From NCBI RefSeq assembly GCF_003966955.1, contig NZ_AP019367.1, positions 868,001 through 932,000 of the forward strand: a stretch of DNA of 64,000 nucleotides, written 5' to 3'. This document shows, one piece after another, positions 6,952 through 47,991 of this stretch. A program made the translations under genes and the position numbers. The stretch's first letter is position 1, and each line of letters begins with the position of its first letter. The notes beneath the pieces are model-generated. The model ran no database searches. It was not told where the DNA came from and saw nothing but the letters and a program-made list of their open reading frames with translations. The stretch comes from Parolsenella catena (GTDB lineage Bacteria > Actinomycetota > Coriobacteriia > Coriobacteriales > Atopobiaceae).

Positions 6952-6980
6952 ATAATAACAGCTACGTCCCTACCGTGCAA
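6952..6980 (-). promoter_or_regulatory. tRNA-Pro promoter
   Basis: On the minus strand -35 TTGCAC and -10 TATTAT are separated by 17 bases. The predicted start is about 20 bases before the tRNA 5' end. Because nothing else fits, this promoter may also serve the ABC exporter by read-through. The -35 abuts a perfect inverted repeat. Confidence 0.7.
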
Positions 6981-7011
6981 GGACAAATTTCACTTATTTT
7001 GAAATTTGTCC
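6981..7011. repeat. 12-bp perfect inverted repeat next to tRNA-Pro promoter
   Basis: GGACAAATTTCA and TGAAATTTGTCC flank a 7-base loop. The element lies between the degV stop (7032) and the -35 box of the tRNA-Pro promoter. It is AT-rich in a GC-rich genome and has no T-run. It may be an operator or the 3' hairpin of degV. Confidence 0.6.
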
Positions 7012-27704: not shown

Positions 27705-27971
27705 ACTTCGAGCTGCCGTCGTGCGCAGCGAGTTGTACTCTACCATAGGATTTTGCCGATGCGCAAGAAGAATTTTAAAAGAAGTTTCGACGAGTTCGTC
27801 TAGCTGGTATTTTAGCGCAATGCTCAGCGTGAGATATGCCTTTGGATCATTTGATTCGTGGGCAATTGAAACCTCGCGAATCCAAGAAGTAGAGACGAAG
27901 CTCACCGAATGATGTTTGTGTCTCGCCCAATGAAATCTAATCTTGAACGGGGATGCCCCCGCTCTCACCTT
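27705..27971. other. Low-GC intergenic region, possible decayed gene
   Basis: This 267-base stretch is clearly more AT-rich than its surroundings. A minus-strand frame (27684-27968, 94 codons) has protein-like sequence in its middle (YLTLSIALKYQLDELVE) but runs into tRNA-Val and lacks a ribosome-binding site. It may be a relic, and it carries the tRNA-Val promoter. Confidence 0.4.
27737..27766 (-). promoter_or_regulatory. tRNA-Val/tRNA-Ala promoter
   Basis: On the minus strand -35 TTGCGC and -10 TAGAGT are 18 bases apart, with a predicted start ~25 bases before tRNA-Val. The -35 matches those of tRNA-Pro, rpsB and rplS. Confidence 0.55.
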
Positions 27972-29374: not shown

Positions 29375-29402
29375 ACTATACGGAAATCTGAGGTTGATGC
29401 AA
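29375..29402 (-). promoter_or_regulatory. tRNA-Ala copy 2 promoter
   Basis: On the minus strand -35 TTGCAT and -10 TATAGT are 16 bases apart, about 20 bases before the tRNA. Confidence 0.6.
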
Positions 29403-29561: not shown

Positions 29562-29589
29562 ATAGTACCAAAAGCGCGTAGCGGCACAA
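29562..29589 (-). promoter_or_regulatory. tRNA-Ala copy 3 promoter
   Basis: On the minus strand -35 TTGTGC and -10 TACTAT are 16 bases apart, about 16 bases before the tRNA. Confidence 0.55.
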
Positions 29590-41258: not shown

Positions 41259-41302
41259 GGTGCTACCTTTCTTGGTTGGCCTCCGCGCCGGTCATCCCAT
41301 CG

Positions 41303-41331
41303 GGCCACCCGCACAGGCGGGCACCGTGGCC
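41303..41331 (-). promoter_or_regulatory. Hairpin in the rpsB 5' leader
   Basis: GGCCAC and GTGGCC enclose an inner CCCGC/GCGGG stem that can form as an alternative. It lies 45-73 bases upstream of the rpsB start, inside the predicted leader. Autoregulation by S2 is known in other bacteria; here it is inferred. Confidence 0.4.
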
Positions 41332-41383
41332 GTTTGGTCGCGACGCGTGTGTTTTCATGCTGGCGATTGCACAGCGGTTGGAT

Positions 41384-41412
41384 AGTTTAGCAGCGCTCTA
41401 CATTGGGCGCAA
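41384..41412 (-). promoter_or_regulatory. rpsB promoter
   Basis: On the minus strand -35 TTGCGC and -10 TAAACT are separated by exactly 17 bases. The transcript would start near 41377. Confidence 0.6.
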
Positions 41413-47886: not shown

Positions 47887-47962
47887 GCTGCAATCCTTGT
47901 CTCTTTGCCCAGAGGTCCCGTCTGATCTGCCAGCGGTACGTGGGGTTTACACACAAGCGAGA

Positions 47963-47991
47963 AGTATAGCGAAGCGAATGCCAGCGCGCAA
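47963..47991 (-). promoter_or_regulatory. rplS promoter
   Basis: On the minus strand -35 TTGCGC and -10 TATACT are separated by 17 bases. It is the best promoter match in the window. Confidence 0.75.

Follow-up and report, generated by a model that had tools for sequence, protein, structure and literature searches.

The -35 element of promoters read by primary sigma factors (sigma-70/SigA) is TTGACA. In Parolsenella catena, the promoter predicted upstream of rplS instead reads TTGCGC, and five other promoters proposed in the same window (the whole 64,000-nt stretch of DNA analysed here, positions 868,001 to 932,000 of contig NZ_AP019367.1) likewise begin with TTGC or TTGT (Table 1). This raises the question of whether the main sigma factor of this organism favours C as the fourth base of the -35 element, as the original prediction proposed, or whether the spelling has a more ordinary origin. 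The six -35/-10 pairs were recovered from the sequence exactly, with hexamers, spacings and coordinates as predicted and all on the minus strand. The motif TTGCRC, under which they had been brought together, held less well: it matches four of the six sites, and the other two do not fit it.

Table 1. Predicted promoters in the window (coordinates count from its first nucleotide).
Promoter	-35 element	Spacer (nt)	-10 element	Window positions	Strand	Remark
rplS	TTGCGC (47986-47991)	17	TATACT (47963-47968)	47963-47991	minus	
rpsB	TTGCGC (41407-41412)	17	TAAACT (41384-41389)	41384-41412	minus	
tRNA-Val/tRNA-Ala	TTGCGC	18	TAGAGT	27737-27766	minus	
tRNA-Pro	TTGCAC	17	TATTAT	6952-6980	minus	
tRNA-Ala	TTGCAT	16	TATAGT	29375-29402	minus	
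tRNA-Ala	TTGTGC	16	TACTAT	29562-29589	minus	position 4 is T, not C

These sites are promoter-like, and the observation was confirmed. Each of the four tRNA sites lies upstream of a tRNA gene; from the end of the site to the start codon downstream of it, the distance is 76 nt for rplS and 125 nt for rpsB. Scanning both strands of the window for TTGNNN-N16-18-TANNNT, with one or more additional -10 matches demanded, returned 11 sites, the six included, compared with 4.6 expected from wrong spacings. Five carried C at position 4 (1.5 expected), all of them among the six; in the five sites that were not, this base was G in four and A in one. A stricter -10 box left four sites (0.6 expected), three with C and one with A.

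Other features were observed close to these promoters. An inverted repeat, GGACAAATTTC-9 nt-GAAATTTGTCC (window 6981-7011, minus strand), adjoins the -35 element of the tRNA-Pro promoter just past the point (7032) at which the upstream ORF ends, and may be a terminator, an operator or an UP-region palindrome. In the rpsB leader (window 41274-41369, minus strand), a sub-threshold match to the Rfam family t44 (22 bits, gathering threshold 44, E=0.63) sits where an S2 leader RNA would be expected.

The genome of P. catena, a gut-type member of the class Coriobacteriia (Atopobiaceae), consists of a single contig of 1.797 Mb, from which 467 kb around the tRNA, rRNA, sigma and S10 genes were combined with the window into a sample of 531 kb. 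Here, TTG was found 16-18 nt from a strict TANNNT-type -10 box at 38 sites, compared with 8.9 expected from counts at wrong spacings. By position 4, observed and expected counts were 11/2.1 for A, 21/2.7 for C, 3/2.3 for G and 3/1.9 for T, and the C count includes the promoters of all four rRNA operons, which share one sequence (TTGCGG-17-TATATT). Across the whole genome, TTGC-N18-20-TATANT occurred 23 times against 4 for a reversed-pattern control, and its TTGA version 8 times against 2. Since TTGC and TTGA are both enriched over their controls, A and C are both used in this genome. For instance, two similar regulator-like genes, which we take to be of the ArsR type, have one spelling each: TTGACT-16-TATACT at G000:C1:193875 and TTGCAA-16-TATAAT at G000:C1:1508135, both on the minus strand.

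An unselected set of promoters was obtained from all 53 tRNA genes (40 leaders) using a caller in which positions 4-6 carry no weight, with TTG required and a score of at least 7 (at least 9 for rpsB). A TTG start was present in 23 of the 40 leaders, 17 remaining uncalled, and position 4 of these 23 promoters was C in 14, A in five, G in two and T in two. A as the commonest base, which is the consensus form of group 1 promoters but not an obligatory one, was therefore not found in this set. No promoter was called in the upstream region of the S10 operon. Of the 15 P. catena tRNA leaders of at least 20 nt, 10 also had a short GC stem (e.g. CGCG...CGCG) close to where the transcript would be expected to start (shuffle mean 3.0, maximum 7; examples in L124, L128 and L131), and more weakly in Collinsella (6/16 vs 2.6).

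The same code was applied to relatives and to more distant bacteria. In Collinsella, 31 promoters were called (12 of 43 leaders uncalled), with C20 A8 G2 T1 at position 4. Gordonibacter, sampled in stretches covering part of its 49 annotated tRNAs (30 found by aragorn), gave C8 A5 T1 in 14 called promoters (13 of 27 leaders uncalled). The actinobacterium Rothia gave C16 G9 A3 in 28 (16 of 44 uncalled); unlike in Coriobacteriia, G occupied position 4 in 9/28 and T was absent (genome G114). In E. coli stretches chosen by map position to include tRNA genes, the 17 called promoters (19 of 36 leaders uncalled) had A11 C6, so that C is present there as the minority base. Coriobacteriia differed from E. 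coli in the use of A (A/not-A, p=0.0045), with p=0.06 for C/not-C.

Across 99 class genomes, the TTGC pattern occurred 1828 times (control 1086) and TTGA 1277 times (control 794). Restricted to the 44 genomes of low background, the counts were 526 (control 118) and 286 (control 82). The absolute excess of TTGC was larger than that of TTGA in 39 of these 44 genomes, and the relative enrichments, 4.5 and 3.5, were close. In class family f5, many of the TTGC sites among the matches listed continue with C. Outside the class, general counts of -10/-35 pairs gave little information. In 32 Firmicutes loci, where aragorn found no tRNAs, the strict setting gave 113/94 (observed/expected) for A and 87/65 for C, 12 other actinobacterial loci yielded only three sites, and a general scan of E. 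coli had no overall signal (52 sites vs 56.7 expected). Geobacillus had TTGA 139 times against a control of 66, and TTGC 92 times against 69; the reversed-pattern controls are distorted in AT-rich genomes because of dinucleotide bias.

The rplS promoter could also be followed across relatives. The closest rplS relatives in named genomes belong to Atopobiaceae, Olsenella, Collinsella and other Coriobacteriia, and 34 of 80 loci, chosen on rank and record title, were compared together with the P. catena locus; Actinomycetes or Actinobacteria appears in two of these titles (L065 and L068). A promoter, and hence a TTG start, was called in 32 of the 35, with C25 T6 A1 at position 4. Position 4 was identical in 64% of pairs, compared with 29% identity in the spacers, 30% at position 5 and 26% at position 6. 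Of the sites compared, the rplS orthologs argue most strongly for selection of C at position 4. The rpsB orthologs lack a conserved C: rpsB was present in 10 of the 34 loci and its promoter called in five, with G4 C1. Downstream of the -10 box, the rplS leaders (window 47887-47962 and L037-L044; 46 of the 80 loci were inspected) share conserved text, ttgtgtgtaaacc...tatgtgtcg...cggcacctctagag, in Atopobiaceae-type loci. This text resembles a ribosomal-protein leader RNA, and no Rfam match was found there.

The tRNA and ribosomal upstream regions agree with the original prediction in so far as C is the commonest base at position 4: this applies to unselected tRNA promoters of the genome (14/23) and the class, to the four rRNA operons and to the rplS orthologs (25/32). 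Its further step, that the main sigma factor prefers C to A, is not borne out in P. catena. The spacers of its tRNA promoters contain 13% A, 24% C, 40% G and 23% T, and given this composition the A:C ratio of 5:14 at position 4 fits equal acceptance (p=0.48). The same correction gives p=0.50 for the pooled Coriobacteriia (18:42) and p=0.47 for E. coli (11:6), with corrected A:C preferences of 0.65 in P. catena and 0.81 in the pooled class. As A:C at position 4 does not differ from A:C in the spacers, this species does not demonstrate that C is preferred to A, and TTGA is itself enriched (11 vs 2.1). Selection at position 4 instead separates A and C from G and T: A or C occupies 19/23 P. catena promoters (p=9e-6) and 60/68 in the pooled class, compared with 42% in spacers (p=2e-15). 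Acceptance of C by the sigma factor is thus well supported.

The recognition residues of the protein itself are ordinary. The main sigma factor is encoded in a 477-aa ORF, with region 4.2 reading VTRERIRQIESKTLAKLRHPSRS, within which VTRERIRQIE recurs unchanged in the five top-ranking alignments to primary sigma factors in the PDB. Among the -35-contact residues of E. coli given in the accessible part of PMC4943231, T583, R584, E585, R586, R588, Q589 and K593 are kept (numbering counted along the alignment), and R596 is replaced by A, a position occupied by S in both actinobacterial-type entries aligned, one of them named HrdB. A changed recognition helix, which a check of region 4.2 might have revealed, was therefore ruled out, since these contacts are unchanged; R596 to A remains as a difference.

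A description in terms of position 4 alone is wrong, as positions 4 and 5 vary jointly. Across the tRNA promoters of P. catena, Collinsella, Gordonibacter and Rothia, A at position 4 is followed by C in 20/21 sites, and C by A or G in 49/58 and by C in seven. After C, a second C occurs in 1/14 P. catena and 6/42 Coriobacteriia promoters. In E. coli, A is followed by C in 11/11, and C by four A, one G and one T. The two spellings, TTGAC and TTGCR, are thus mutually exclusive in tRNA promoters, most of which have exactly one C at positions 4-5: 20/23 in P. catena (reached by 25 of 20,000 within-genome permutations), 23/31 in Collinsella (438), 13/14 in Gordonibacter (38), 21/28 in Rothia (300) and 17/17 in E. 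coli (0). Pooled Coriobacteriia had 56/68 against a permutation mean of 36.1, which none of 20,000 permutations reached; these values are optimistic because the data had already revealed the coupling when it came to be tested, and as checks E. coli and Rothia are independent only in part.

The 531-kb sample, which covers genes of any kind, gave a similar picture. CG (11 observed, four of them identical rRNA operon copies, vs 1.0 expected), AC (7 vs 0.4) and CA (7 vs 0.4) are the pairs clearly enriched at positions 4-5, followed by TG (3 vs 0.7), AG (3 vs 1.0), CC (2 vs 1.1), AT (1 vs 0.3) and AA (0 vs 0.5). No evident difference in spacer length was found between TTGAC and TTGCR tRNA promoters.

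Upstream of the -35 element, the tRNA promoters of P. catena and Collinsella carry an A-tract, a T-tract and an A-tract in register (A 47-72% at -21 to -18, T 42-62% at -15 to -12, A 51-62% at -10 to -7). The UP element consensus of E. coli has the same arrangement, and binding of the alpha subunit is putative here.

The reading that we favour, with somewhat better than even confidence, is that these are ordinary primary-sigma promoters whose -35 element follows either of two spellings, TTGAC or TTGC(A/G), instead of a single consensus made of independent positions, with A and C about equally accepted at position 4. The sigma factor would take either base once composition is considered, and the C spelling would be more frequent in a GC-rich genome. 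In E. coli genetics, R584 acts at position 5 of the -35 element. A single arginine of region 4.2, corresponding to Arg584, may require a template-strand guanine, which could be the one paired to the C at position 5 of TTGAC or to that at position 4 of TTGC; exactly one C at positions 4-5 would then be sufficient. The UP-like element of the tRNA promoters would let such a partial -35 box suffice. Several observations run counter to this model. After correction, C still outnumbers A in Rothia and at the rplS promoters, so that tolerance plus composition is insufficient there, and the rpsB orthologs mostly have G at position 4. The coupling is also not significant among the mapped Cupriavidus promoters described below, and TTGC is often followed by C among the matches listed for family f5.

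A wider form of the two-spelling reading would extend it across phyla: primary sigma factors may read the second half of the -35 box as either of two mutually exclusive words, TTG(A/T)C and TTGC(A/G), both of which would present one template guanine to the same region 4.2 arginine, with lineages differing in the word they use and position-weight matrices hiding this. We regard this extension as possible, if rather doubtful.

An intrinsic preference of the clade's primary sigma factor for C, as originally proposed, appears unlikely. It would account for the cases where composition falls short, namely Rothia, where C exceeds A by 16 to 3 with about as much A as C in the spacers (p=0.005), and the class-wide rplS orthologs (A:C 1:25, p=7e-5), whose C persists although the spacers are only 29% identical, and also for the larger absolute excess of TTGC in most low-background genomes. 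However, the A:C ratio of tRNA promoters in P. catena and the pooled class is that of their composition, relative enrichment in the 44 genomes is similar for both patterns, the contact residues of region 4.2 are of the common type and the rpsB orthologs have G in four of five.

Pure mutation bias, in which position 4 is weakly read, GC-rich genomes drift towards C and the coupling has no function, is improbable. The A:C ratio at position 4 does track the spacers in P. catena, Collinsella, Gordonibacter and E. coli. Yet G and T are depleted there (two each of 23 in P. catena) though G is the commonest spacer base, which already strains this view; the dependence between positions 4 and 5 goes far beyond permutation in two phyla, and rplS retains its C while the spacer is saturated.

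Equally, it is hardly probable that TTGC marks a functional class, in which stable RNA genes and ribosomal genes have UP elements and are tuned for growth-rate control, with TTGA left to other genes. TTGC does occur at the rRNA operons, many tRNAs and rplS, UP-like tracts lie upstream of tRNA promoters, and TTGC is frequent at ribosomal genes in a start-site table of Cupriavidus. However, 5/23 of the P. catena tRNA promoters are TTGAC, the two regulator-like genes described above divide between the spellings, and the AT content of the UP region is alike for C and A sites, so that no clear functional split was seen. Recognition of TTGC by an alternative sigma factor or a DNA-binding regulator is very improbable: the genome encodes a second sigma-70-like protein and smaller candidates, but the -10 boxes are of the primary type (TATAGT, TATACT, TATATT) with spacers of 16-18 nt, the genes concerned are essential and region 4 of the second protein has a different recognition stretch.

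Compared with known systems, these promoters share TTG, a spacing of 16-18 nt, a TATAAT-like -10 box and the canonical region 4.2 residues with TTGACA promoters, and differ in having C more often than A at position 4 and, after C, mostly A or G rather than C at position 5. In the actinobacterium Corynebacterium glutamicum, the accessible part of PMC3917453 gives the sigma-A -35 element as TTGNCA statistically and TTG(A/C)CA functionally; A and C are both accepted at position 4 there too, but CA follows the C, compared with A or G here. Table 2 of PMC9045368 lists mapped RpoD promoters of Cupriavidus metallidurans, of which the 33 TTG rows have C16 A13 T4, with C commonest as here and many of them at ribosomal genes. 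Cupriavidus differs in being a betaproteobacterium with an authors' consensus of TTGACA, and in these rows exactly one C was found in 20/33, a coupling that is not significant (permutation p=0.17). In M. smegmatis and S. coelicolor, also actinobacteria with an altered -35 element, R584, E585 and Q589 are conserved as in P. catena, whereas TTG, retained here, is not conserved in their sigma-70 promoters, according to the accessible part of PMC8407463. For Bifidobacterium breve, the accessible part of PMC5746004 gives TTGACA, with C at position 5 notable.

Corynebacterium glutamicum and Cupriavidus provide precedents for C at position 4, which in itself is therefore no novelty. In the mostly open-access literature searched, no promoter or start-site study of Coriobacteriia and no dependence between positions 4 and 5 of the -35 element were found, nor were class-wide use of TTGC in Coriobacteriia and the exclusion between TTGAC and TTGCR. 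The TTGC -35 element is a clade-level variant of a known element, real, ordinary and only partly new; the two-spelling rule is possibly new and perhaps general. If this rule is true in E. coli too, -35 recognition would not be additive per base, which would bear on promoter prediction, promoter design and the contacts of region 4.2. For Collinsella, Gordonibacter and their relatives in Coriobacteriia, the consequence is that promoter finders based on TTGACA under-score strong promoters.
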